Shown here: piece after piece, positions 4,201-58,086 of the stretch | Position numbering within the stretch: the stretch's first letter is position 1 | Layout: every line of letters starts with the position of its first letter | Source: Anaerobacillus sp. CMMVII | GTDB lineage: Bacteria; Bacillota; Bacilli; Bacillales; Anaerobacillaceae | DNA: 64,000 bases | Assembly (NCBI RefSeq): GCF_025377685.1 | Contig: NZ_JACEHK010000015.1 | Span: 1-64,000, forward strand | Reading direction: 5' to 3' | Notes under the pieces: generated by a model | Database searches by the model: none | What the model was told of the DNA's origin: nothing | The model's input: the letters and a program-made list of their open reading frames with translations, nothing else | Made by a program: the position numbers and the translations under genes

Positions 4201-4712
4201 TCGATATCATTTCAAAATTAAAAAGCATCAATATAGTTATGAAAAAATCATAAGTATATGAACACACGAAAGTCCTAGACTTTTGCTTGGAGGCTCTTAA
4301 ATATTCAAAATATATCATTACGAGATCAGAGTCTATATAGCAAATAAATACTTTTATCACTCTTATTGATCGTTTCACAAGTTGTGTGCATATGCACTGG
4401 TTGTAAAGTAACCAACTTATAAAATTTGAGCTTCTAACTCAATCAATAAGGCAACTAAGTTGCCAGTCGGCATTTGACCCGGCTGTCCGTATGGCCTTAA
4501 CTTCTTTATGGAAGTGGTCAAAATCTGCTTGGAAATACATGATATATTGAATAGTTGTTTTCCAAAGAATGCATTATTAGATTAACACATATAATTGAGA
4601 TTTCAATAGTTTAAATAAAAAAAATAAAAAAAATTAAGCTGGAAAAATAATCAACCTCTTTGTAGCTGTTATTAATTGACTTATAGATAGTAGTGAGTTT
4701 AGGGAATTCAGC
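4201..4712 (-). promoter_or_regulatory. Candidate leader RNA or small remnant upstream of the polyamine operon
   Basis: About 500 bases without a convincing gene. The piece 4440-4545 is noticeably richer in G+C than its surroundings, and short stop-free runs exist in several frames of both strands (for example minus-strand MPTGNLVALLIELEAQIL ending at 4417), none with a ribosome site. A palindrome gtgcatatgcac lies at 4386-4397. Together with the terminator at 4153-4200 this could be a structured leader; I could not match it to a known riboswitch class. Confidence 0.25.
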
Positions 4713-12411: not shown

Positions 12412-12556
12412 CGCAAAGTTTGTTGCTTAAATAAACACTAAGATATCACTACTAATTTAGTAAGCATTGCTCTTTTCTTACTTATTCTACTAGGTGAATT
12501 CTTCAACTAGGGGATTTTATTAATTATTTTAGGTTAAAAAACAACAAGTTTTTTTG
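12412..12556. repeat. About 150-bp imperfect direct repeat, copy 1
   Basis: Starts cgcaaagtttgttgctt, passes actactaatttagtaagca and ctcttttct, and ends ttttaggttaaaaa. The same order of blocks recurs at 12601-12769. No coding frame spans either copy. Confidence 0.6.
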
Positions 12557-37898: not shown

Positions 37899-38021
37899 AC
37901 GTTGAGCGTTGTGATCCAAGCGATTTTTCCGAGAAATGAAATGTTAATGTTAGTTAATTCAAAACCACTTCAATGTCACTAATTGTTAATGAATGGTTGG
38001 CTTTTTGCCTCTAAATAGCTA

Positions 38022-38064
38022 TAAAGAGCCATTTACGCAAATGACGAATTGTATGTACGATAAA
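38022..38064 (+). promoter_or_regulatory. Promoter block shared with nosD, copy 1
   Basis: 34 of 43 positions match 46740-46782 without gaps, including the first 15 bases (taaagagccatttac) and tatgtacgataa. A plausible -35 (TTACGC) and -10 (TACGAT) are 17 bases apart, with AGAGCCA just upstream as a likely regulator site. Confidence 0.6.
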
Positions 38065-38130
38065 GGGGATCATAAAGGAATTTGTAGTTGCAGAAGTAAT
38101 GAAAATAACCGAAAAAGGATGTGAGAAGCA

Positions 38131-38610
38131 TTGAGAAAAATTCATCTCTTGTTACTAATAATAATTGGATTAAATATTCATGTCAGTACAGTAACTGCTT
38201 CGACTTATGATAATAATTCACCAGAAGTCAAAGAAATTGCTGAACAGTTTTCTATGCAAGGGCATGCTGATCATGATATTTCAACGTGTCAAACGATGCA
38301 AATGTACTATCAAGAAATAGTCGAATTATTAAACGAAGGTCAAAAAAAAGAGGAAATTATTGATTATTATTATAGTATGTATGGTGAAGAAGGAATGAGA
38401 GTGCCGAAAAAATCAGGATTCAGCCTATTGGCATGGACGACACCTTTCGTCGTTTTAGGTGTAGCGGGAGTAGGTTTGTTTATAGGCGTAAATAGAATGA
38501 CTAATAGATTTAGTCAAAATAATGATCATGAAAATGTAAGTGAACGAGAAATGGTAGAATCAGAAATAACGAAAGCAATGATAGATGAAGAACGCAAGAA
38601 GTTCTTCTAA
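38131..38610 (+). CDS. CcmH/NrfF-like cytochrome c maturation protein, lacking the first cysteine
   Basis: 159 residues from a TTG start after AAAAAGGATGTGAG. Signal peptide (1-24), a helical CcmH-like domain (STCQTMQMYYQEIVELLNEG, then EIIDYYYSMYGEEGMRVPK) and one C-terminal helix with SLLAWTTPFVVLGV, in the order of CcmH. CcmH normally has LxCxxCQ; here only the second cysteine remains (DISTCQ), so reduction of apocytochromes as usually described is doubtful. It precedes a rhodanese lipoprotein by 16 bases. Confidence 0.7.
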   Translation: MRKIHLLLLIIIGLNIHVSTVTASTYDNNSPEVKEIAEQFSMQGHADHDISTCQTMQMYYQEIVELLNEGQKKEEIIDYYYSMYGEEGMRVPKKSGFSLLAWTTPFVVLGVAGVGLFIGVNRMTNRFSQNNDHENVSEREMVESEITKAMIDEERKKFF

Positions 38611-38626
38611 GATAGGGGGATAACTA

Positions 38627-39070
38627 ATGAAAAAGACTCAATGTTCACTTTTCATTTTATTAATTCCTTTCGTAGTTTTAATCCTAGGGTTAGCAGCTTG
38701 TAGCAGCTCATCTGAAACTAGAGCTATTAGTGAGCTACCGGAGAAAAGTAGTGAGGAAATAGAAGAAAATCTGGATATGATTTCTGCTGAAGATTTTATT
38801 GAAGCAATACAACTGAATTCTCTTTTCCTATTAGATATTCGTTACGCCAATGATTTTCTTGAGTCTCATTTGGAGAGATCAGTAAACATACCTTTTTCTG
38901 AAGTGGCAGAGAGATATGATGAACTGCCTTTCGATCAGGAAATTGCGATTATCTGCTACGGAGGAAGTACTTCTATACAGATAGCAGAAGAACTTAGAGA
39001 CGCGGGCTTCCATCCAGTTGTTGTAACTGGTGGATATAAAGCTATTGAAGAAGTGAGTAGCGAAAATTAA
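38627..39070 (+). CDS. Rhodanese-domain lipoprotein
   Basis: 147 residues: signal peptide with lipobox LAAC, a short acidic linker and one rhodanese domain (about 50-145) with LLDIRYANDFLESHLERSVNIP and active-site cysteine in IICYGGSTS. Located on the outer face of the membrane. Rhodaneses transfer sulfane sulfur; this may supply or remove sulfur for a redox enzyme. Co-transcribed with the CcmH-like gene. Confidence 0.85.
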   Translation: MKKTQCSLFILLIPFVVLILGLAACSSSSETRAISELPEKSSEEIEENLDMISAEDFIEAIQLNSLFLLDIRYANDFLESHLERSVNIPFSEVAERYDELPFDQEIAIICYGGSTSIQIAEELRDAGFHPVVVTGGYKAIEEVSSEN

Positions 39071-39100
39071 GGTCGCTTTAGACGTATATATGGAATAAAT

Positions 39101-39136
39101 AAAGGGCTGGCACCTTGCGATGGTGTCAGCCCTTTA
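39101..39136. terminator. Bidirectional terminator
   Basis: Stem aaagggctggcacc/ggtgtcagcccttt between convergent genes, with A/T-rich flanks on both sides. Confidence 0.85.
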
Positions 39137-39146
39137 CTATGTAGTC

Positions 39147-39575
39147 TTACATGTTCATTTCACCGTTGTCATAATTCAGTTGCCAAATAGTCCCGAATTT
39201 ATCCGTTACTTGTCCATAGCATTTGCTCCAGAACGTTTCTTGTAATTCCATGCCAACAGTACCACCGCTTTTTAGTTTATCAAAGGCATTCTTAATTTCA
39301 TCCATGTTCTTACTTACGATGGCTAAGCTAATATTGTTTCCAACCTGATAGGACATACCAGGGAAAACATCAGAAAACATGACATTACTGCCGCTAATCG
39401 TAAGTCTTGTATGCATGACCAAGTTTTTTGCTTCTTCAGGCAATGGAAATTCTGGGTTAGGTGGTGTTTCTCCAAACGTCATAATTAGTGGTTTTTCTGT
39501 ACCAAATACATCTGCGTAAAACTCCACTGCTTCACGGCAGTTTCCATTAAAATTTAGGTAAACATCAACAGCCAT
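39147..39575 (-). CDS. VOC-family (PhnB/glyoxalase-like) protein
   Basis: 142 residues starting MAVDVYLNFNGNCREAVEF at 39575, with GGAGTG six bases upstream; a longer TTG start at 39593 would absorb the ribosome site. The sequence FGETPPNPEFPLPEEAKN and the C-terminal LQETFWSKCYGQVTDKFGTI are typical of PhnB-type vicinal-oxygen-chelate proteins. No defined substrate. Confidence 0.85.
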   Translation of the reverse strand: MAVDVYLNFNGNCREAVEFYADVFGTEKPLIMTFGETPPNPEFPLPEEAKNLVMHTRLTISGSNVMFSDVFPGMSYQVGNNISLAIVSKNMDEIKNAFDKLKSGGTVGMELQETFWSKCYGQVTDKFGTIWQLNYDNGEMNM

Positions 39576-39645
39576 TACTTTCACTCCATCCAATTCAATT
39601 AGTAAGAACGATTAAAGTTTAACAAACAGTCTTGTAAAAAACAAA

Positions 39646-40896
39646 TTACACTTGTGCTGGAATCGTAAGAGTAAAAGTTGTCCCAACTCCTTTTTCACTT
39701 TCTACATCAATTTTTGCGTTGAGCTTATTGATTGTGTTATAAACCATAAGCATTCCTAGCCCAGTGCCTTCAGCCTTAGTAGAGTAATAGGGCTTTCCTA
39801 AACGTGAGATTTCTTCTTGAGTCATTCCAATTCCAGTATCGCTAATTTTAATGATAATGTTGTTTCTTTTTGATAAAACATCAACACGTAAGGTGCCACC
39901 TAGGTCTTTCATTGCCTCAATTCCATTTTTGTATAAATTAAGTAAACACTGTTGGAATTGGTTTCTATCAAGCTTTTTAAAAAGCGTATTACTGAAATTA
40001 AATTCTAAACTGACTTCGTGCAAATTTGCATAGGGAGTAATAATATTTTTTACATAAATGGTTTCCTCTTCTAAGTTGGAAGATACCATATTAACTGATT
40101 GTGGCTTACCAAAAGCGAGGAAATCACTGACAATTTTTTCGGCACGGTTTAACTCTCTTAACGATAAATCAATGTACCACTTTTCCTCGGATGTTAAGGA
40201 CGTTGATTTGTTGAGAAGTTGTAAGAAACCACTGGTAACGGTTAAAGGATTCCTTATTTCATGAGAAACACTAGCAGATAAATCATTGATGATATTCATT
40301 TGTTCTAACTGAATTAACTCTTCCCGTTTTTTCATGTTATGATAGATTTTCTCTACTAGGATCATGATAAAAACAATACAAATAACGTAGATTGATAAAG
40401 AGTTAATGGATATAATCCAAAACTCTCGATTTAGTGTTTCATAATACATGGTTAATGTTGAAAGATAGAATATGATGATCCCACCTGCAACCATTGCTGC
40501 GCACCAAACCTTCTTGGTCGAGCTCAATTTAACGAATTTCTTATGTAATAGTGGCACTAAAATAAAGAAAAGAATTGATAATAAGATCGATTGAATAGTT
40601 CCATTCCCACCTACAATAATACGGTAACCAATGACTACTAAAATCAATGGGAAGCCAAGCTTATATCCCCCATAAAGTGAGGCAATGATAAAAGGGAAAT
40701 AACGTAGATCAAACGTAAACCCTAATTCAAGTCTAATTGGGTAGCTCATACAAAGGATGGTTGTGATAGCTCCAAGTAGTATCAGAAACTTTGTATTATA
40801 AAAAGTAGTTTTGTTTTCAAGGAAAATTAAATAGATTAGTACCGGTAGAAGTAGAATAAGGAAGTTTATGAGTAAGGTTTCAGTCAAAAGGAACAC
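39646..40896 (-). CDS. Sensor histidine kinase with 5TM-LYT sensor
   Basis: 416 residues: six or so helices in the N-terminal 195 residues resembling the 5TMR-LYT domain (FDLRYFPFIIASLYGGYKLG), then HisKA with H212 (SVSHEIRNPLTVTSGFL) and an ATPase domain (GTGLGMLMVYN). No regulator is encoded next to it, so it may be an orphan kinase like the KinA-E/KinB sporulation kinases. Confidence 0.88.
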   Translation of the reverse strand: MFLLTETLLINFLILLLPVLIYLIFLENKTTFYNTKFLILLGAITTILCMSYPIRLELGFTFDLRYFPFIIASLYGGYKLGFPLILVVIGYRIIVGGNGTIQSILLSILFFILVPLLHKKFVKLSSTKKVWCAAMVAGGIIIFYLSTLTMYYETLNREFWIISINSLSIYVICIVFIMILVEKIYHNMKKREELIQLEQMNIINDLSASVSHEIRNPLTVTSGFLQLLNKSTSLTSEEKWYIDLSLRELNRAEKIVSDFLAFGKPQSVNMVSSNLEEETIYVKNIITPYANLHEVSLEFNFSNTLFKKLDRNQFQQCLLNLYKNGIEAMKDLGGTLRVDVLSKRNNIIIKISDTGIGMTQEEISRLGKPYYSTKAEGTGLGMLMVYNTINKLNAKIDVESEKGVGTTFTLTIPAQV

Positions 40897-41406
40897 CTCT
40901 CTTGCAATTGAATTAAGTTGAGAACACTGCTAGTTTTCTTAATATTACTACAAATGACCTATTCTTGTTACAAAAAATTATAAATTTTGACAAAAAAATC
41001 ACTTTACAAATTATGCTATCAACCACCAAGCTACGATGGATAAAAACAAAATCCTCTTTTGTTTGTCCAAAGGACCAAAGTAGGGATTTGTTATTTGTCC
41101 TAACATGTCATTTTTGGTTAGACACACCGTGGGTAATTAGAACTAATATATTTTGCGAGCAAAACGAAGTGTTTAAGACTTTGTCGATGATTGTTGGAAG
41201 AATTCAATATTATAAATATAGAAATAATATAAACTTTTAATTATCAGACAATTCTTATTTTTTGAGTTATAAAGTAACGTCTGATTTCAGGAAATCGTCG
41301 TCTCGGGGGTGAACGAGTAAAAAATTGTTGATTGGGATGTTTTTTGCAAGTAAAAGGGTAGAGTGTTTTGATCTTAAAAATTAAACAATAGGAAGGGAAA
41401 TGTTGA
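40897..41406. other. Intergenic region before the protease gene
   Basis: About 510 AT-rich bases. A 91-codon frame at 40965-41240 lacks a ribosome site and protein-like composition and is not accepted. No hairpin terminator for the minus or plus side was found. Confidence 0.4.
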
Positions 41407-44400
41407 ATGAGGGGAAAGAAATTTAGAAAAGTCTTTAATAGTTTATTAATATTTACAATCATTTTCACAATGCTATTCCCAGCGTATGGATTTGCTACAA
41501 ATGAAGGGCCCTCGTTAAAAGATCAGTTAAGCAATGAAGCACTATCCCAAATGAAGGACATAATTGCACAACAAAAAGCAGCATTAAGTGCAGACCCTGT
41601 ATTACATCCTGATTTACAAAATCTTACAGGCGATGAAGAAATATCAGTCATTGTTCAGTTATCGGAAGCTCCAGTGGCTTTGGAAAAAGGTAAAAGCAAG
41701 ATTGCTGGTAAAGGATTTTCAAAAGCAGATGAAAAGAGAGTCAAGGATAAAGTAAAGGCTCAACACGATAAATTTGAAAATGAACTAGGGAAAAAAGGAC
41801 TAAAGGCAAAAAAAGGCTTTACTTACAGCAATGCCATCAATGGTATGGCACTAACCATCAAAGCTAGCGAAGTAGAGAAATTACTAGAATTAGAAGGTGT
41901 ACTTTTAGTTGAACCAGATTTAGAGGTAGTTGCGCTTTCTAACCCTACTGCGAGTGGCGAAGCAGGAACTAAACAATACATTGAAAGTGTGACTCACTTA
42001 GATGTACCTGCCGTTTGGGATTTAGGCTATGAAGGGCAAAAAGTCAAAGTAGCGGTTTTAGATACTGGTATTGACTATCACCATCCAGATTTTGAAGGTG
42101 TATATAAGGGTGGATTCAACTTTGTTCCTCATACAATCGGGGGTTCAAGTGGATATGCACGAGCAAGAGATTTTGATGATCCATATGAAACATCTCCGTT
42201 AGATCGACCATCAAATAGAGCTGAATTTAACTCTAATGGGAGCTCGTTCTACACAACACATGGAACTCATGTAGCTGGAACGATTGCTGCACAAGGGAAA
42301 AATCCTTACGGAATGATTGGACTTGCTCCAAAAATAGAGTTATATGCATATAGAGTACTAGGTGCATATGGTAGTGGAGCGACTTCTGGAATTATTGCCG
42401 GTATCGATAAGTCTGTTGAAGAAGGCATGGACATTATTAATCTATCACTTGGTGGAAGTAGCAATAGCCAAACCGCTTCTGACGCTATAGCGATTAACAA
42501 TGCTGCACTTGCTGGTGTAACAGCGGTAATTGCAACAGGTAACAGTGGTTCTGGTCGAGGTACAATTGGGAATCCTGCAACAGCGGCATTTGCAATCTCA
42601 GTTGGGAATACGACCGTTCCTGAAGATGTGATTAAAGCTCAAGGGACAACCGTTGTTGGTACATCTAATGTTACTAGTAACTTAAACCTGATGGGGTGGA
42701 AGTTTGGAGAAAAAGCTGAAGATGTTCTTCAAGGTACTTTAGACCTAGTTGCCATTGGCGGTTGGGGTGAACCAAAAGATTATGTCGGCAAAGATGTTGA
42801 AGGAAAAATAGCAGTAGTAACTCGTGGGCAAACACCTTTTGTAGATAAAATTGCTGCGGCTAAAGCAGAAGGTGCTATAGGAATTATTATTTATAATAAT
42901 GCAGCAGGACATATTAATATCGGACTTGGTGATTCGTTTGACTTCATTCCGGCATTTGATATGACGCGTGAAGAAGGGTTAGCATTAGTAAGTGCTCTGA
43001 ACGGTAATGGGGGCCAAGGCCAAGTAAGTTTCGATAATTATACTTATACGAAAACATCTGGTGATGAGGTTAACAACTCAAGCTCACGTGGACCGGCAAA
43101 TCCTGTATTTGATATTAAACCAGATGTCACAGCTCCTGGAACAAATATTTTATCAACAGTTCCATCATATGGTAAAGACTATCCAGATGCAGATTATTCA
43201 AAGGCATTCGATCGCTACACAGGAACAAGTATGGCGACTCCACACGTTGCTGGTATCGCTGCATTACTTAAATCACAGCATCCAGAATGGACACCATTTG
43301 ATCTGAAAGTAGCAATCTCGAATACTGCTAAACAATTAGATACAGCAAGGTTCGATGTGTTTGCCCAAGGACCTGGACGTGTTCAACCGCTAAAAGCAGC
43401 AACAACAGAAGCGTTAGCCTACGCATATGATAAGACAACATTCTCAAACAGAACGTATGATAATGTCAAAGGAACAATTACGTTTGGAAATGTTCCGACA
43501 GGTTCAGCGACGACTGTTACAAGAGATGTAGTTTTGAAGAATCTATCTGGTAATGTAAGTGATTATAATGTCTCGGTTCAGGTGACAAAGGCGGCATCTG
43601 GTTCACTAGCTAGTACTAACGTCACAGTTGACCAGTCTAGCTTTACCTTAGCAGATGAAAAAACATTAAAAGTGACATTAAATATTCCTGCAGGTAGTGG
43701 TTCAAATGGAAATGAAATCTTAGGTTATGTCCACATCACAAACGGGACAACGAACTTAATTCTTCCATTTGCAGCGAATTTTGCTCCACCAACAGGACTT
43801 AAGAGCTTAACGTTAGATCACTACGACATTTCACCAAACGGTGATGGACTGTTAGATAGTACAATAATTCGCTATGATTTCTGGACTGCTCAACGAAGAA
43901 CGTACATTGAGCTCTGGGATGCGTCTAACCCCGATGGTGGATTATATGGAGACGGCTATATCGGCTGGCTAGTAAATCAAGCTTCAACATCAGTTGGACC
44001 AAAAACGTATAATTTTAATGGAATGTATACGCCGTGGGGCTCTTCAACACAGCAAAAGGTACCTGAGGGTGTTTACACAGTTGATATCACTACATTAAAC
44101 CTTCTAGGAACAGCAATCGTTGCCTTTGGTTGGACTGGGCCGGTTTATGTTAAGTACTCTGCTCCAGAAATCTTTACCGATGAAGAATATAGAATGAGTG
44201 GCACAAGCTATAACTTTGCTGGCTCTATTACTGACAAGTACATCGATTTTGCCCCAACAGTCAGAAATGTCTTTGGTTTAGACTATGATGTAAATGATAA
44301 GCTAACGGCTAGCTATGACCTTACAAATAGTGAAGGTGATTTTGTAGGGAACTTCCCTATTACTTTAAATCAAGATGGGACATTCGAAGCTTCTGTTGAC

Positions 44401-45108
44401 GAGTTATCCCTAGGGGACAATACGGTAAAATTAATTGTTGTTGATGAAGCGCAAAACCGTGCTGAAAAAGAAATTACTATTACAAGATTAGATACAGATG
44501 CACCGGTAACGAATGCTTCTGTTGACGGTCAAGAAGGTACAAATGGATGGTACACTGCTGATGTAACGGTTACCCTTACTGCAACAGATGATGAGTCTGA
44601 TATCAGTGAAACTATGTACCGAGTAAACGAAGGCGAATGGCAGACATATTCGAGTGCCTTTGAGGTGACAGAAGAAGGAACGAACAAAATTGAGTTTTAT
44701 AGTGTGGATAGTGCTGGTAACGAAGAAGATATTCAATCATTAGAGGTGAGAGTTGATAAAACTGCACCTACGTTAGCTGTTACCGTAGATAAATCAATAT
44801 TTAACGTACCAAACAACAAGCTAGAAGATATAAAAGTGACACTAGTTGAAAATGATTCTGTATCTGGAATTGCCACTGTACATCTTACATCGATTACAGT
44901 GAATGAGTCTTACGGAAATGAAGATGTCCAAGGGGCAGAATTTGATACAAGGGATACAGAATTCAGTGTACGAACATCTAGAAATGGTAATGGTAAAGGT
45001 AGGGTTTATACGGTTACCTATGTAGCCACTGACAATGCTGGAAATACTGTTGAAGCTACAGCGACAATTACAGTTGCTCATGACCAAAGGGAAAATAATG
45101 GGAAATAG
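41407..45108 (+). CDS. Secreted subtilisin-like serine protease (Vpr type)
   Basis: 1233 residues: signal peptide (1-31), inhibitor-I9-type propeptide (about 75-180), and an S8 domain with D219 (AVLDTGIDYHHPDF), H285 (THGTHVAGT) and S608 (GTSMATPHVAG). A PA (protease-associated) domain is inserted between H and S (about 430-540), as in Vpr. The C-terminal region contains an Fn3-like segment, a FlgD-like part (YDISPNGDGLLDST) and an Ig-like repeat pair (DTDAPVTNASVDGQEGTNGW). No cell-wall anchor is visible. GGAAGGGAAATG region supplies the ribosome site. Confidence 0.94.
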   Translation: MRGKKFRKVFNSLLIFTIIFTMLFPAYGFATNEGPSLKDQLSNEALSQMKDIIAQQKAALSADPVLHPDLQNLTGDEEISVIVQLSEAPVALEKGKSKIAGKGFSKADEKRVKDKVKAQHDKFENELGKKGLKAKKGFTYSNAINGMALTIKASEVEKLLELEGVLLVEPDLEVVALSNPTASGEAGTKQYIESVTHLDVPAVWDLGYEGQKVKVAVLDTGIDYHHPDFEGVYKGGFNFVPHTIGGSSGYARARDFDDPYETSPLDRPSNRAEFNSNGSSFYTTHGTHVAGTIAAQGKNPYGMIGLAPKIELYAYRVLGAYGSGATSGIIAGIDKSVEEGMDIINLSLGGSSNSQTASDAIAINNAALAGVTAVIATGNSGSGRGTIGNPATAAFAISVGNTTVPEDVIKAQGTTVVGTSNVTSNLNLMGWKFGEKAEDVLQGTLDLVAIGGWGEPKDYVGKDVEGKIAVVTRGQTPFVDKIAAAKAEGAIGIIIYNNAAGHINIGLGDSFDFIPAFDMTREEGLALVSALNGNGGQGQVSFDNYTYTKTSGDEVNNSSSRGPANPVFDIKPDVTAPGTNILSTVPSYGKDYPDADYSKAFDRYTGTSMATPHVAGIAALLKSQHPEWTPFDLKVAISNTAKQLDTARFDVFAQGPGRVQPLKAATTEALAYAYDKTTFSNRTYDNVKGTITFGNVPTGSATTVTRDVVLKNLSGNVSDYNVSVQVTKAASGSLASTNVTVDQSSFTLADEKTLKVTLNIPAGSGSNGNEILGYVHITNGTTNLILPFAANFAPPTGLKSLTLDHYDISPNGDGLLDSTIIRYDFWTAQRRTYIELWDASNPDGGLYGDGYIGWLVNQASTSVGPKTYNFNGMYTPWGSSTQQKVPEGVYTVDITTLNLLGTAIVAFGWTGPVYVKYSAPEIFTDEEYRMSGTSYNFAGSITDKYIDFAPTVRNVFGLDYDVNDKLTASYDLTNSEGDFVGNFPITLNQDGTFEASVDELSLGDNTVKLIVVDEAQNRAEKEITITRLDTDAPVTNASVDGQEGTNGWYTADVTVTLTATDDESDISETMYRVNEGEWQTYSSAFEVTEEGTNKIEFYSVDSAGNEEDIQSLEVRVDKTAPTLAVTVDKSIFNVPNNKLEDIKVTLVENDSVSGIATVHLTSITVNESYGNEDVQGAEFDTRDTEFSVRTSRNGNGKGRVYTVTYVATDNAGNTVEATATITVAHDQRENNGK

Positions 45109-45135
45109 AACTGACAATTAAAGACCTAGTTAATC

Positions 45136-45170
45136 AAAGAACCTCACTGCTTTTGGTAGTGAGGTTCTTT
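45136..45170. terminator. Bidirectional terminator
   Basis: 15-bp stem aaagaacctcactgc/gtagtgaggttcttt (one mismatch) between convergent protease and regulator genes. Confidence 0.9.
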
Positions 45171-45211
45171 CTATAGTTTTGTATGGAAAGCTATTTGATA
45201 TAAAATTTTAA

Positions 45212-45859
45212 CTATTCAACCCAGCCTTTTTCATATGCGTACCTTGTAATTTGAACGCGATTTTCTAAATGGAGCTTGTGCATGATGTTTTTTAGATGGT
45301 TTTTTACGGTGTGTTCTGAAATAGAGAGATCTACTGAGATTTGTTTATTTGTATGTCCTTTGGCTACTAGCTCAAGAACTTCTTGTTCTCGTTTAGACAA
45401 GGGGTTTTTCGTCATTTGTTTTTCTTTTTGAGAAGTAAACTCCTGAAGTAGTTTGAATGCAAGCTCTTCTGACATTGGAATTTCATCATCTGCAATCGCT
45501 TGTAAATATTCATACCAAGCAGTGGGATTGATATTTTTTAGTAAATATCCTTGGGCCCCTTTTTTTATCGCTTCAAAAAGATTAGTGACCTCATCAGAAA
45601 CAGTAACAATGATCACTTTGATATATGGGTACTTTGTTTTGATAATTTTCGTAGCTGAAAGCCCGTCCATATGTGGCATGTTAATATCCATCAAGATAAT
45701 ATCAGGCATCAGCTCCTCAGTTAAAAAAATCGCTTCTTCTCCGTTTGTTGCCTCACCGACGATCACAAAGTTTTCGTAGGAACCGACAATCTCTCGGATT
45801 GCTTCTCTTGCATGGTCATGGTCATCAACAATTATTACGCGAAATGGTTGTTTCATCAT
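45212..45859 (-). CDS. NarL/LuxR-family response regulator
   Basis: 215 residues: receiver domain with phosphoacceptor D58 (PDIILMDINMP) and a C-terminal LuxR-type HTH (SKREQEVLELVAKGHTNKQI). A second ATG at 45856 has better spacing to AAAGGGG. It overlaps the kinase gene by 35 bases. Divergent from nosDLYF, which makes it the best local candidate for the nos regulator. Confidence 0.9.
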   Translation of the reverse strand: MMKQPFRVIIVDDHDHAREAIREIVGSYENFVIVGEATNGEEAIFLTEELMPDIILMDINMPHMDGLSATKIIKTKYPYIKVIIVTVSDEVTNLFEAIKKGAQGYLLKNINPTAWYEYLQAIADDEIPMSEELAFKLLQEFTSQKEKQMTKNPLSKREQEVLELVAKGHTNKQISVDLSISEHTVKNHLKNIMHKLHLENRVQITRYAYEKGWVE

Positions 45860-46493
45860 AATTCCCCTTTCGGATAATCACTTGTGTTTTTTCATCGTTT
45901 CGTTCGAGTGAAAAGTTCCACCCCATCGAATTTGTACGGTCTTTCATGATCTCTAAACCGTACCCTTTTGCTGAGCTTTTTCCATTTCTAATATATAAGC
46001 CATCGTCTTCAATTTTACAAATCCAGCCATTTGGTAGTGTCCTTGCTGAGATCCAGACATTTTCACACTTTGCATGTTTTCTTATGTTCATTAATGCCTC
46101 TTTTATACAAGCGTAAAGCTCAATCTTTTCTTTTGCTGAAAAGATTGATTCGTCGATCTCCCAATTAACATTAACAGTTTTTTTACTTTCTTCTTTGAAA
46201 TTTGCGATTAATGTATTTAATGATGATCTCCAGTGAAAGGACTCCTCATGTGTTGCATTTCGTAAATTAAAGATAGCTTGTCTAACATCTGTATGAATGT
46301 GTTGTATCGTCTTTTTTATCTTTTGATAAACCTCATTATCGTTAAGCTGTGGTTCTTTTAATTCTAGTTGATTGAATTTTACTGAAACAAGAAAAAGTGA
46401 CTGAGCAATTCCATCATGTAATTCACGGGACAGCTTTTCTCTTTCTTCTAAAATTGACTTCTGTGCTTTTTCTTTTTCTAAGTCTTCCTTCAT
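45825..46493 (-). CDS. HisKA_3 sensor histidine kinase, cytoplasmic part
   Basis: 222 residues: coiled-coil, H26 in SRELHDGIAQSLFLVS, and an HATPase domain (EALMNIRKHAKC, DDGLYIRNGK, GYGLEIMKDR). It starts in the stop codon region of the small membrane gene (ATGA). One extra base in the A-run would fuse both into a single 285-residue membrane kinase, so this may be one gene split by a deletion or error. Confidence 0.85.
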   Translation of the reverse strand: MKEDLEKEKAQKSILEEREKLSRELHDGIAQSLFLVSVKFNQLELKEPQLNDNEVYQKIKKTIQHIHTDVRQAIFNLRNATHEESFHWRSSLNTLIANFKEESKKTVNVNWEIDESIFSAKEKIELYACIKEALMNIRKHAKCENVWISARTLPNGWICKIEDDGLYIRNGKSSAKGYGLEIMKDRTNSMGWNFSLERNDEKTQVIIRKGNYDETTISRNNC

Positions 46494-46681
46494 TTCTTCA
46501 AAATGTTAAACAACCTTAGGAGGAAAACCATAGTTACTAAAAATACAATGATAGGTGCTAAAAGATTTCCAAGTTCCATTGATAGGTAAGGAAGTAAAAA
46601 TTCGTGACGGACATATTCCCATAGGCCAATGATAATGGTAGGGATTAATAATATTAGCCATTTTATCTGTTTGTAGGACAT
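46490..46681 (-). CDS. Two-helix membrane protein, probably N-terminal part of the kinase
   Basis: 63 residues, two membrane helices (about 8-23 and 38-58) and little else; ends FNILKK just where the kinase begins MKEDLEKEKAQKS. Inserting one base in the junction gives a continuous two-helix sensor kinase. If the frames are correct it is a separate subunit translated in coupling with the kinase. Confidence 0.6.
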   Translation of the reverse strand: MSYKQIKWLILLIPTIIIGLWEYVRHEFLLPYLSMELGNLLAPIIVFLVTMVFLLRLFNILKK

Positions 46682-46739
46682 GTGTATTCTCCTTTAGATT
46701 GATGCTCTATTTTCAGAACGTCTAGAGTTTATATGACCC

Positions 46740-46782
46740 TAAAGAGCCATTTACAAAATTAATTCATTTTATGTACGATAAC
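46740..46782 (+). promoter_or_regulatory. nosD promoter block shared with the CcmH-like gene, copy 2
   Basis: Same 43-base layout as 38022-38064. -35 TTACAA and -10 TACGAT with 17-base spacing; taaagagccat precedes the -35. The nosD start is 17 bases beyond the block. Confidence 0.6.
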
Positions 46783-46798
46783 ATGGATTGGTGGTGTA

Positions 46799-48124
46799 AT
46801 GATTATGTTTTATTCATGGAAGATTTATTTAATCTTTTGCTTATTATTTAGTAGCTTCTATTTATGTTTTTCTGGTTCTTCTTCTGCTCATGGGACGATA
46901 CAGGATTTGATTGACCAAGCTGAGCACGGGGAGGAGATTATTCTTCCAGAAGGAATATATGAAGAAGTCATTACTATTACGAAATCGTTAAAGATTATTG
47001 GTGAAGGCGCAATTATAAAAAATACAGCGGATAAGGTGGCCATTCATATCCAGTCCGACGAAGTATCTTTAACGGGATTAACGGTTTTTCAACTAAATAA
47101 GCAGACTGAACATCCAGCGATCCTCATCGAAGGAACCGACAATACTCTTAGTAATTTAAAAATAAGTAGTCAATCGACAGGTGTTCAATTAAATAATTCT
47201 ATTCGAAATACGATAGAAGGTCTACACATTGAACGAGAACAGCCACTTGATTTGGCGCAAACGAATATGGGAAATCGCCAAGGAAATGGGATTGATCTAT
47301 TTTTTTCAAATGAAAATGTACTTAAAGGCAATACAATGGTTAATCAATTAGATGGAATATATGTAGAAAGTAGTTCGGGAAATATTATTGAAAATAATCA
47401 TGTAATTAGATCGCGTTACGGCTATCATTTAATGTTTGCTGAAAGTACAACAATGCAGAACAATTATGCAAGTCTAAACATTACTGGTGCAATGATTATG
47501 GGGTCATCTAACCTTACGATAACAAATAATACCTTTACTAGGCAATCTTATCATGTACATTCCCAAGGACTCCTTCTCTACGATGTTCATGATTCGACTG
47601 TAAGTAAGAATTTCCTATCTGAAAATCTAATCGGTCTTTACATTGAGCGATCAAGTCAGAATTTTATACAGGAAAATCAGATCTCTGCTAACTTTGTTGG
47701 AATCCAGTTAAAAAGAGTGTCTAATCATGATATATTCCATAATGATTTCAACACGAATGTCATTCAAGCAAGAGTGACAGACAGTGACATGAATGATGTA
47801 AGAGAAAATTATTGGGATAGTCATACAGGTCTTGATTTTACGGGGGATGGGAAGAGTGAAATTCAGTTTCAGTCGGATCCGATCTTCCTTTCCTTAGTTG
47901 AGCGAAAACCATCATTTCAAGTTTTAGCTCAATCACCTGGTTTATTATTTTTGAATTTATTATTTGATATGAATGAAGAAGCCATTTTAAAGGATACTGC
48001 GCCACTTCTTAAGCCTAATTTAGAAACAGTCATGGATGATAAAAAATCATTCGAAGATCTCTTTATTTATCTGGGGTTAATGTTGGGATCAGTCGCAATT
48101 ATTTTAGGAGGTAGAAGAAAATGA
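46799..48124 (+). CDS. nosD: NosD, periplasmic-type assembly protein for nitrous oxide reductase
   Basis: 441 residues with a signal peptide (about 1-30), a right-handed beta-helix of parallel repeats (about 80-340; NGIDLFFSNENVLKGNT, IYVESSSGNIIENNHVI) and a C-terminal membrane helix (residues about 420-436). NosD works with NosF and NosY in building the copper CuZ site of N2O reductase. It is the first gene of nosDLYF; the next gene overlaps by 4 bases. No nosZ is found in the window. Confidence 0.92.
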   Translation: MIMFYSWKIYLIFCLLFSSFYLCFSGSSSAHGTIQDLIDQAEHGEEIILPEGIYEEVITITKSLKIIGEGAIIKNTADKVAIHIQSDEVSLTGLTVFQLNKQTEHPAILIEGTDNTLSNLKISSQSTGVQLNNSIRNTIEGLHIEREQPLDLAQTNMGNRQGNGIDLFFSNENVLKGNTMVNQLDGIYVESSSGNIIENNHVIRSRYGYHLMFAESTTMQNNYASLNITGAMIMGSSNLTITNNTFTRQSYHVHSQGLLLYDVHDSTVSKNFLSENLIGLYIERSSQNFIQENQISANFVGIQLKRVSNHDIFHNDFNTNVIQARVTDSDMNDVRENYWDSHTGLDFTGDGKSEIQFQSDPIFLSLVERKPSFQVLAQSPGLLFLNLLFDMNEEAILKDTAPLLKPNLETVMDDKKSFEDLFIYLGLMLGSVAIILGGRRK

Positions 48125-48687
48125 AGAATAGTTTGATTACATTAGTGTTAATGGTACTTTTAACAGGAATCGTCGCATGCGGTACAAAAGATGCTGTTTA
48201 TCCAGCTGCAAATGTCCAAGGTGGAGTGGATCGTTGCGAACACTGTAATATGTTAGTACCTGATGATTTAAATGCTACTCAGTTAATTTTAGCGGATGGC
48301 CGTTCGTTAATGTTTGATGATATCGGTTGTATGGTTGAGTGGGTAAATGATCATGGAATGGACGATGTAAATGTTCGTTATGTAAGAGACTACCATAGTG
48401 AAGATTGGATTGTGATGGAGGAAGCTACATTTGTTTATCATAAAGAATTTCGAACTCCTATGGCCTACGGAGTTTACTCGTTTTCTTCAAAAGTCGATGC
48501 TGAAGCATTTGTAGTCGAACAAGGCATGGGAGAAATTATTTCTTACCCAGAGCTTGAAGGTCATACTTGGGAAAGAGATATGGAAATGATGAAGAAAATG
48601 AAAGAAGAAATGGGCAAGCACCATCATGGTGACGCCGGAGATAATGAAGAAGCTGAAGAAGAAACAAAGTCAGGACATGGCCATTAA
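48121..48687 (+). CDS. nosL: NosL copper chaperone lipoprotein
   Basis: 188 residues: lipobox IVACG, then VDRCEHCNMLVPDDLNATQL and FDDIGCMVEW, the NosL copper-binding motifs. The C-terminus is histidine-rich (GKHHHGDAG...KSGHGH), an added metal-binding tail. Delivers copper to apo-NosZ. Overlaps nosD by 4 bases. Confidence 0.92.
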   Translation: MKNSLITLVLMVLLTGIVACGTKDAVYPAANVQGGVDRCEHCNMLVPDDLNATQLILADGRSLMFDDIGCMVEWVNDHGMDDVNVRYVRDYHSEDWIVMEEATFVYHKEFRTPMAYGVYSFSSKVDAEAFVVEQGMGEIISYPELEGHTWERDMEMMKKMKEEMGKHHHGDAGDNEEAEEETKSGHGH

Positions 48688-48763: not shown

Positions 48764-48823
48764 TTTGTCACTGAATGCCGTTTTATTTGTAGGCGCTTTC
48801 TGATACTAAAGGAGTTGGCTGGG

Positions 48824-49648
48824 TTGAATATCATTACGATAGCAAGAAAAGAGATTAAACTAGGTTTTCGAAATCCATGGTCCTATACATTCCTAATTAC
48901 TTTTTCGTTATTTTCATTAGCACTGTTATTCATTCATGCTGATGCGCAAGCGGGCATTGGGAAGTATACAACAATGACAGGTACAATGATGAATTTATTG
49001 CTTTATTTTTTGCCGTTAATGACACTCATGTTGGGGTCTTTCTCCGTTACAACTGAAAAGGAAGATGGTAATTGGCAACTGCTGTTGTCCTATCCACTAT
49101 CAAGCTCCCATTGGCTAATTGGAAAATATATCGGTATCTATATTGTCATTACTGCGATTGTTTCATTTGGATTTGGACTAGCCGGTATAGTGGGGATGTT
49201 TTTTGGAGCCAAACTTCCAAGCGGGACAGGTCTCTTTTTACTGACCTTTTCGTTATTGCTCTCTTTTATTTTCCTAGCATTAGCCATTTTTATAGGTACT
49301 GTTTCTAAAAACCGTTGGCAAGCGCTCACGGCTAGCGTTAGTATCTGGATTTTTTTGGTTTTAGCATGGCCAATTATGATGATCTCAACGCTAAGTTCAC
49401 TGAACTATCAAGTATTAAAGTCAACCATTGAAATTGTTACATTGTTAAACCCTGCTGAATTTACAAGGATTTATATGATCATAAAACTAGGCGGTGGTGC
49501 GGTATTCGGTCCGGAATACATTCATTGGGTTGGTTGGGCTGGCTCTAGCCTAGGTACGGCGTATTTCATTGTTCTATGTATCGTATGGGTCTATTTTTTG
49601 ATGACGACTGCCATTTATATCATTGAGCGGGGGAGAAGACATGGATAA
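48824..49648 (+). CDS. nosY: NosY ABC permease
   Basis: TTG start at 48824, nine bases after AAAGGAG. About 274 residues with six membrane helices and the ABC-2 motif TTEKEDGNWQLLLSYPLSSS. Forms the NosFY ABC transporter used for NosZ maturation, possibly exporting a sulfur species to the outer side. Its last codons contain the nosF start. Confidence 0.88.
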   Translation: MNIITIARKEIKLGFRNPWSYTFLITFSLFSLALLFIHADAQAGIGKYTTMTGTMMNLLLYFLPLMTLMLGSFSVTTEKEDGNWQLLLSYPLSSSHWLIGKYIGIYIVITAIVSFGFGLAGIVGMFFGAKLPSGTGLFLLTFSLLLSFIFLALAIFIGTVSKNRWQALTASVSIWIFLVLAWPIMMISTLSSLNYQVLKSTIEIVTLLNPAEFTRIYMIIKLGGGAVFGPEYIHWVGWAGSSLGTAYFIVLCIVWVYFLMTTAIYIIERGRRHG

Positions 49649-50342
49649 TCAAGTTCTGTTAAAAATTGAAAATGTCAGTAAAGTTTATGCAGATAACCAA
49701 GTCGTCTCGCCTTTCGATTTTTCAATGAATAAGCCCGAAGTTATCGCTCTGTGTGGTGGCAATGGTGCAGGGAAAAGTACAATTATTAAAATGGTAACAG
49801 GACAAACACGAGCAACAACCGGTAAGATAACAATAAATGGAGTAGATTGGCACAAAAATCGAATGGCATATGCAAAACAAATAGGTTACATGCCAGATGA
49901 TTTTCATCTTCAACAACCATTGTCAGTTATTGAATTTATTAGTTTCTTTGCTTCATTGAAAAAAGCCGATAAACATGTTACAGAGACACTGGCTAAAGTT
50001 GGACTGTTAGAAAAAAAAGATCAACTTATTTCAAAGCTATCAAAAGGGATGAGGCAACGCCTATTATTAGCTCAAGCCCTTGTATCAAAACCAAAACTTA
50101 TCTTACTTGATGAGCCAACAAATGGTTTAGATCCTCAATGGGTAAAAACATTTATAGAAATTCTTTTGGATTTAAAGAAAAATGGACAAGGGATTCTTTT
50201 TTCGACTCATAATCTTGCAGTTGCTGAAGAGGTAGCTGATCAGGTCATTTTCTTGAAAAACGGGATAATTAAAGAAAGAATTCATTTTGAGGAAAACGTA
50301 CCGAGAGATTTGTCGCAATATTATAAGGAAGTATTTGCTTAA
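49641..50342 (+). CDS. nosF: NosF ABC ATPase
   Basis: 233 residues from ATG 49641 after GGGGGAG. Walker A GGNGAGKSTIIK, signature LSKGMRQRLLLAQAL, Walker B LILLDEPTNGLDPQ, H-loop STHN. Energises NosY. Overlaps nosY by 8 bases. Ends the nos operon at the terminator 50354. Confidence 0.93.
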   Translation: MDNQVLLKIENVSKVYADNQVVSPFDFSMNKPEVIALCGGNGAGKSTIIKMVTGQTRATTGKITINGVDWHKNRMAYAKQIGYMPDDFHLQQPLSVIEFISFFASLKKADKHVTETLAKVGLLEKKDQLISKLSKGMRQRLLLAQALVSKPKLILLDEPTNGLDPQWVKTFIEILLDLKKNGQGILFSTHNLAVAEEVADQVIFLKNGIIKERIHFEENVPRDLSQYYKEVFA

Positions 50343-51297: not shown

Positions 51298-51871
51298 TGT
51301 CACAATCTGTTCGCAGGCTGGTAACAATTTCGTCAAACTTTGCTCAGTTATTCACAAAAGTGTGTCGTATAATGAAAGTAAGTTAAGTTAGCAATCACTA
51401 ACTAACAAAAATCAAAGGAGTGAAGGACTTATGTTTATGAATTTTTTAAGAAATAATGTATATGCATCAGGAATTTTAACTGTTTTAAGAGTATATCTTG
51501 GTTGGAAGTGGTTAACTGGAGGTTGGGGTAAGATTACAGGTGAACCTTTCAATGCAGGTGGATATCTAAATGGAGCTATAAATAATCCAGTAATGAGTGG
51601 AGAAAATCTTGTTTACCCAACGTATGTATCGTTTTTAGAGAATATTGCGATACCAAATGCAGGAGTATTTAGCTTTATGGTAGCATGGGGAGAATTCTTA
51701 GTAGGTCTTGGTTTAATCCTAGGAATTTTAACAACTGCAGCAGCATTTTTCGGAGTAGTCATGAACTTCTCATTCATATTTGCTGGAACTATTTCAACAA
51801 ACCCTTGGATGATCCTTATCGCAATGTTTGTTTTAGCAGCAGGAGCTAACGCAGGTAAATTCGGTGGCGAC
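51298..51871 (+). repeat. Long direct repeat, copy 1 (promoter plus most of DoxX)
   Basis: Colinear without gaps with 57438-58011, offset 6140 bases. Covers 130 bases of upstream DNA and about 147 codons. Similarity falls sharply after the GGTGGCGAC at its end. Confidence 0.92.
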
Positions 51872-51946
51872 TATTATGTACTTCCTTATCTTAAACAACT
51901 GATTTCAGGAAAAAAAGCAATAACTCACCAAAACAAAGCGGCCTAA
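51431..51946 (+). CDS. DoxX-family membrane protein, copy 1
   Basis: 171 residues, four helices, with the DoxX core GILTVLRVYLGWKWLTGGW and a WGEFLVGLGLILGILT helix. DoxX/DoxD proteins belong to quinone-linked sulfur or oxidative-stress membrane systems. AAAGGAGTGAAGG precedes ATG. The upstream sequence is shared with copy 2, including TATAAT at 51368 and a small gttag/ctaac hairpin in the leader. Confidence 0.85.
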   Translation: MFMNFLRNNVYASGILTVLRVYLGWKWLTGGWGKITGEPFNAGGYLNGAINNPVMSGENLVYPTYVSFLENIAIPNAGVFSFMVAWGEFLVGLGLILGILTTAAAFFGVVMNFSFIFAGTISTNPWMILIAMFVLAAGANAGKFGGDYYVLPYLKQLISGKKAITHQNKAA

Positions 51947-57437: not shown

Positions 57438-58011
57438 TGTCACAATCTGTTCGCAGTCTGGTAACAATTTCGTCAAACTTTGCTCAGTTATTCACAAAAT
57501 CATATCGTATAATGGAAGTAAGTTAAGTTAGCAATCACTAACTAACAAAAATCAAAGGAGTGAAGGACTTATGTTTATGAATTTTTTAAGAAATAATGTA
57601 TATGCATCAGGAATTTTAACTGTTTTAAGAGTATATCTTGGTTGGAAGTGGTTAACTGGAGGTTGGGGTAAGATTACAGGTGAACCGTTCAATGCAGGTG
57701 GGTATTTAAATGGAGCTGTTAATAATCCAGTAATGAGTGGTGAAAATCTTGTTTACCCAACTTATGTATCGTTTTTAGAGAATATTGCGATACCAAATGC
57801 AGGAGTATTTAGCGTAATGGTTGCATGGGGAGAATTCTTAGTAGGTCTTGGTTTAATCCTAGGAATTTTAACAACTGCAGCAGCATTTTTCGGAGTAGTC
57901 ATGAACTTCTCATTCATGTTTGCGGGAACTATCTCAACAAATCCTTGGATGATCCTTATCGCAATGTTCGTTTTAGCAGCAGGAGCGAACGCAGGGAAAT
58001 TCGGTGGCGAC
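57438..58011 (+). repeat. Long direct repeat, copy 2
   Basis: Partner of 51298-51871; see that entry. Differences are mostly silent or lie in the region upstream of TATAAT. Confidence 0.92.
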
Positions 58012-58086
58012 CGTTGGGTATTACCGTATATCAAACAAATGGTTTTCAAAGGCAATAAAGGAATAGTTGAAAAAAAGGTAGCATAA
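57571..58086 (+). CDS. DoxX-family membrane protein, copy 2
   Basis: 171 residues, nearly identical to copy 1 for the first 145 or so residues (INNP to VNNP, SFMV to SVMV changes), then different: DRWVLPYIKQMVFKGNKG. Same ribosome site and promoter. The equal lengths with different tails suggest gene conversion of the 5' part between older paralogues. Confidence 0.85.
   Translation: MFMNFLRNNVYASGILTVLRVYLGWKWLTGGWGKITGEPFNAGGYLNGAVNNPVMSGENLVYPTYVSFLENIAIPNAGVFSVMVAWGEFLVGLGLILGILTTAAAFFGVVMNFSFMFAGTISTNPWMILIAMFVLAAGANAGKFGGDRWVLPYIKQMVFKGNKGIVEKKVA

Follow-up and report, generated by a model that had tools for sequence, protein, structure and literature searches.

Two separate units of Anaerobacillus sp. 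CMMVII, a nosDLYF operon and a unit headed by a single-cysteine ccmH paralogue, carry the same rare block of sequence upstream. The block is conserved at orthologous positions in sister genomes, and NosZ was not detected in any of the seven genomes of the genus that were searched. Judged from its sequence pattern, the block is likely to be a sigma-A-type promoter at which one putative activator would co-induce a NosZ-independent copper module and the single-cysteine ccmH unit. Promoter activity, a bound activator, its signal and the client of the two units are what we infer.

Two copies of the block in the window

The window is the whole 64,000-nucleotide stretch that was analyzed. The earlier note had aligned positions 38,022–38,064 and 46,740–46,782 without gaps, and this alignment was confirmed: 34 of 43 positions are identical, including the first 15 bases and the 12-base tatgtacgataa, which are equally spaced in the two copies. 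The spacer columns differ while these cores are identical. Likeness ends at the block edges, with identities of 11/30 in the upstream and 10/30 in the downstream flank. The chance expectation per window is ~0.003 for a 34/43 match and ~9e-7 for the 27 core columns, and the best matches in two dinucleotide shuffles of the window reached 31 and 32. Direct self-comparison of the window at ≥33/43 returned three clusters, namely the block pair, a duplicated doxX-like gene (51,431–51,946 and 57,571–58,086, with identical runs of at least 43 bases) and an imperfect direct repeat between ORFs at 12,437 and 12,656 (36/43 identical). An ORF resembling the doxX-like gene adjoins the regulator in sister genome G004 (L010 11,957–12,469).

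The same note had proposed a search of the whole genome. In the 4.87-Mb genome (21 contigs), a search for the 27 core bases that tolerated as many as 3 mismatches returned the two window sites and no others, and the same two sites were the only ones in all seven genomes of the genus. Rfam gave no match at either block. Elsewhere in the window, it gave a group II intron match at the window edge (RF02004, positions 4–191, + strand, 101 bits) and a match to the Streptococcus sRNA family SpF59 between ORFs (RF02440, positions 4,467–4,520, − strand, 74.5 bits). The open-access literature search found no paper describing the block, which does not prove that none has been published.

Conservation of the block in the genus

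The genus sample comprised seven genomes, from the strain's own (G000) to G006, with a completeness of 80% for G003 and 62% for G005. NosD was present in three of them (G000 and the single-contig genomes G004 and G006), with no match in G001, G002, G003 and G005, the last two being the incomplete ones. Both sister genomes with a NosD match have a version of the block ahead of nosD (TAAAGAGCCATTAC-N19-TAAAAT in G004 and TAAAGAGCTATTAC-N19-TATAAT in G006), and one of them has another upstream of the relocated ccmH (AAAAGAGCCATTTAC-N19-TACGAT in G004). The two block-bearing units of G004 are ~1.96 Mb apart. The idea that one promoter block is common to two separate units is supported, and the block has been retained at orthologous promoters of sister genomes. 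We conclude from these sequences that the block is probably a conserved promoter of the two units that has persisted in G004 despite the distance between them.

In a held-out test, only the two window sites served as query against 14 loci (220,814 bases, both strands). The G004 ccmH site ranked first (26/34) and the G004 nosD site second (25/33), with the best background match at 24/33. The G006 site, at 22/33, ties with or falls below background, and it is assigned by where it lies and by its box being intact. The first and second ranks, together with the core-column expectation given above, argue against a chance resemblance of AT-rich promoters. The upstream box alone does behave as such a resemblance would, since with up to one mismatch it occurred at background level (12 places in the seven genomes vs 16 for the reversed control); in the strain's own genome, the same search returned only the two exact sites. 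We regard chance as a very remote explanation of the block as a whole.

A profile built from the five sites (R1) was run over the seven genomes, where it scored 150 of roughly 900–1,900 candidate places per genome, so that weak sites may be missed. It recovered its five training sites at E ≤ 6.8e-8, as it must, and everything else at E 0.015 and worse. The next-best match (E 0.015) lies in G006 inside a gene read as GntR-type. The profile picks only its training sites, and therefore the visible regulon consists of two units. Over 20 nosD loci of other Bacilli, R1 found no match, and locus L125, searched in addition, gave a single weak one (E 0.22). The exact pattern matched 16 times in a wider contig collection, once in a Bacillales record and 15 times in other groups; the Bacillales match lies inside an ORF unlike nos or ccm. 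A search for related loci with the NosD alignment returned no relative.

Putative promoter elements within the block

The block of the ccmH-like unit spans positions 38,015–38,064 (+ strand), with the upstream box at 38,022–38,036 and a TACGAT −10 element at 38,056–38,061. That of the nosDLYF unit spans 46,733–46,783 (+ strand), with the box at 46,740–46,754, a −35-like TTTACA at 46,750–46,755 and TACGAT at 46,774–46,779. All five sites from the three genomes read AAAGAGCYATT, then AC, 19 bases and TAnnAT, and the invariant parts of their alignment are AAAGAGC, ATT, AC and GTAnnAT. A TAnnAT −10 element ahead of a gene and at a constant distance from the upstream element, as sigma-A promoters would have it, was thus found in 5/5 sites (AC-N19-TAnnAT). 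The only indel among the sites falls between the box and AC and points to an upstream module beside a core promoter. Such a pattern would be expected of a sigma-A −10 element combined with an activator box in the −35 region.

Activator-dependent sigma-A promoters of Bacilli in which the activator site touches the −35 region have the class II arrangement. The sites share with such promoters a good −10, a weak −35 and, at fixed spacing, a conserved site immediately upstream; they differ in that the box matched no motif that we could name. We propose that the block is a sigma-A-type promoter. Its upstream part reads ATRRCnnWAAAGAGCYATT(T)AC, with G at the second R in one site, and would be an activator site at the −35 region; the TAnnAT lying 19 bases past it would be the −10 element.

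The 17-base spacing that the earlier note gave for a −35/−10 pair inside both copies is corrected here. At the nosD block, a hexamer scan gave TTTACA-18-TACGAT (9/12), one of 2 pairs found there vs 1.9 in shuffles, and inside the ccmH block no pair reached the threshold. The 17-base spacing is obtained only with the weaker −35 reading TTACnn.

The nosDLYF unit and the N2O reductase

The genes downstream of the 46,740 copy are all on the + strand. They are a nosD-like gene (46,799–48,124; PF05048; TIGR04247 at 248 bits, cut-off 300), a nosL-like gene (48,121–48,687; PF05573, 1.3e-12), a nosY-like ABC permease gene (48,815–49,648) and a nosF-like ABC ATPase gene (49,623–50,342). By their Pfam matches, nosD, nosL, nosY and nosF are adjacent on one strand, and the order is the same in G004 (L010) and G006 (L011).

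The shared block had been read as a sign of one regulator controlling N2O-reductase assembly. NosZ (TIGR04246) exceeded the cut-off in none of the seven genomes of the genus, where weaker matches spanned only the C-terminal cupredoxin part; as a positive control, the same model was over cut-off in 21/398 Bacilli. NosD matches were found in 120 of these 398, and of the 58 genomes with NosD above 200 bits, 57 were without NosZ by a hand count of two lists. In a tree of 42 NosD proteins (16 nosZ-linked and 26 unlinked), linked and unlinked proteins parted with one change (support 99/96, 100% of 200 bootstrap trees), and the window NosD was on the unlinked side; the unlinked proteins had been picked mainly by similarity to the window protein, which favors such a split. 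Four unlinked copies from nosZ-bearing genomes, only 28–31% identical to the window NosD, were still on the unlinked side. The N2O-reductase reading fails because NosZ is undetected throughout the genus sample and the window NosD groups with NosDs that are not nosZ-linked. In the proposed mechanism, the nosDLYF unit would be a copper-delivery module independent of NosZ.

Such clusters have been described. Published examples are nosD-L-Y-F clusters without nosZ in Bacillus azotoformans (nosD4 and nosD5; PMC3475470) and a Parageobacillus NosL/NosDFY locus without nosZ, for which a copper nitrite reductase was proposed as client (PMC13068155). Both resemble the present operon in having nos assembly genes without nosZ. 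The operon differs from these clusters in that a relocated ccmH paralogue has the same promoter block.

The relocated ccmH paralogue

The second block precedes a gene for a CcmH-like protein (38,131–38,610, + strand; PF03918, 4.3e-12, cut-off passed) that lies outside the ccm operon and, by alignment, has a single cysteine. It is followed by a gene for a rhodanese-domain protein (38,627–39,070, + strand; PF00581, 5.7e-13) with what we read as a lipoprotein-like start. CcmH/NrfF subunits have paired active-site cysteines in an LRCxxC motif. The window protein is like this family in matching the Pfam CcmH model and differs from it in having one cysteine in place of the pair. The CcmH-like protein of the earlier note is similar to the family in sequence and lacks the cysteine cluster that its in-operon paralogue has.

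Protein searches found two CcmH-like proteins in G000, G001, G004, G005 and G006, and one in G002 and G003. Their coordinates show a tandem pair in G001, G005 and G006; the two members are apart in G000 (on different contigs) and G004 (by ~976 kb). The G006 tandem lies among ccm-type genes, with what we read as a pentahaem-nitrite-reductase-like gene nearby. The first paralogue of G000 has the same kind of neighbors, the nitrite-reductase gene there being Cytochrom_C552. In G000, G004 and G006, the second paralogue contains a single cysteine and lacks the cysteine cluster of the in-operon paralogue, and in all three aligned copies (38,131–38,610; L031 7,865–8,389; L034 7,579–8,067) it keeps H-x2-H-x4-C. 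Cysteine loss thus preceded relocation, because the second paralogue is single-cysteine in G006 as well as in G000 and G004. The orphan ccmH is followed by the rhodanese-domain gene in G000, whereas in G004 the next ORF of at least 100 aa is on the opposite strand.

The genomes in which ccmH has left its operon, G000 and G004, are precisely those with a block at the orphan copy. This would also be seen if the copies were alike through a past promoter duplication or capture at the move of ccmH, with no common activator at present. Such an origin sits poorly with two window copies whose likeness stops at the block edges and whose spacers differ around identical cores. The upstream box has moreover been kept at both units of G004 and at nosD of G006, and continuing selection is therefore needed. 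We consider a bare remnant of duplication improbable.

The NarL-type regulator

A NarL/LuxR-type response regulator gene (45,212–45,859, − strand), a candidate only, lies next to a split sensor gene. The kinase part of the latter (HisKA_3, HATPase_c) is a 222-aa ORF at 45,825–46,493 (− strand), and its membrane part (63 aa) is at 46,490–46,681 (− strand), with a stop that overlaps the kinase ORF start. The sensor kinase is a single 274-aa ORF in L010 and L125, and its split in the window may reflect a sequencing error, decay or a coupled two-part kinase.

The earlier note had tentatively nominated this regulator as the one controlling both units. Recast without the N2O reductase, with the regulator binding the box and activating both units, the proposal is a possible one, although the evidence leans against it. 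In G000 and G004, the regulator and kinase genes are oriented divergently from nosD, and related regulators (49.5–59% identity, where the window's other NarL-type regulator reaches only 42%) lie near nosD in 3/20 distant loci, L074, L078 and L080, from three families. However, G006 has kept the block and nosD with no regulator orthologue (E ≤ 1e-60), G002 has the regulator with an intact kinase but no NosD match and no block, and the partner kinase gene in the window is split.

Comparison with DegU was similarly divided. The DegU consensus is GNCATTTA (PMC2245950), and it occurs inside 3/5 sites. The likeness to DegU sites consists of GCCATTTA inside these three and of the 45,212 regulator belonging to the same broad NarL family. 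The difference is that two of the five sites break GNCATTTA and no repeat arrangement is common to the sites: the three have one copy each, and a second copy, inverted and matching at 7/8 by eye, is present only at 38,022.

Candidate clients

The NirK model TIGR02376 was run on 80 genomes: the 7 of the genus, 40 others with NosD (38 of the 57 others above 200 bits, plus G102 and G261 at ~180 bits) and 33 without a listed NosD match, 13 of which were deduced from absence in the NosD match list. None of the 80 exceeded the curated cut-off. At E ≤ 1e-10, matches within the genus were found in 3/3 nosD-bearing genomes vs 0/4 others (p 0.029; two of the four are 80% and 62% complete), and outside the genus in 27/40 genomes with NosD vs 13/33 without (two-sided p 0.020). 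In the NirK-like band (≥180 bits), the numbers were 9/40 and 4/33 (p 0.36). These matches are consistent with copper delivery by nosDLYF without proving it.

The matching protein of G000 is, by our labels, a two-domain, copper-nitrite-reductase-like lipoprotein (195 bits vs a cut-off of 296), and those of G004 and G006 are three-domain multicopper oxidases. The copper-nitrite-reductase-like gene of the strain's own genome, below the family cut-off, is located outside the window (L169 6,594–7,583). No client is singled out, because different genomes have different NirK-model proteins and the block is found at none of them.

Implications

In the mechanism that we favor, one putative activator would co-induce the NosZ-independent copper-delivery module and the relocated single-cysteine ccmH paralogue, next to which the rhodanese gene lies here. 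The output would probably be maturation of an exported copper or redox protein, and the signal perhaps low oxygen or nitrogen oxides. A more specific and rather unlikely version has the two units, as one regulon, maturing exported copper enzymes in the absence of N2O reductase: nosDLYF would supply copper, and the CcmH paralogue without the cysteine cluster (with the rhodanese here) would have been recruited as a partner to serve the same client. Examples of such a client would be the copper-nitrite-reductase-like lipoprotein of G000 or the multicopper oxidases of the sister genomes.

The presence of nos assembly genes is frequently taken to indicate N2O reduction. That reading would be wrong here, where they are present but no N2O reductase is detectable, as is also the case in many of the sampled Bacilli. 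The shared promoter offers a handle on the NosZ-independent module, as its regulator, partner and client should appear under the same condition.
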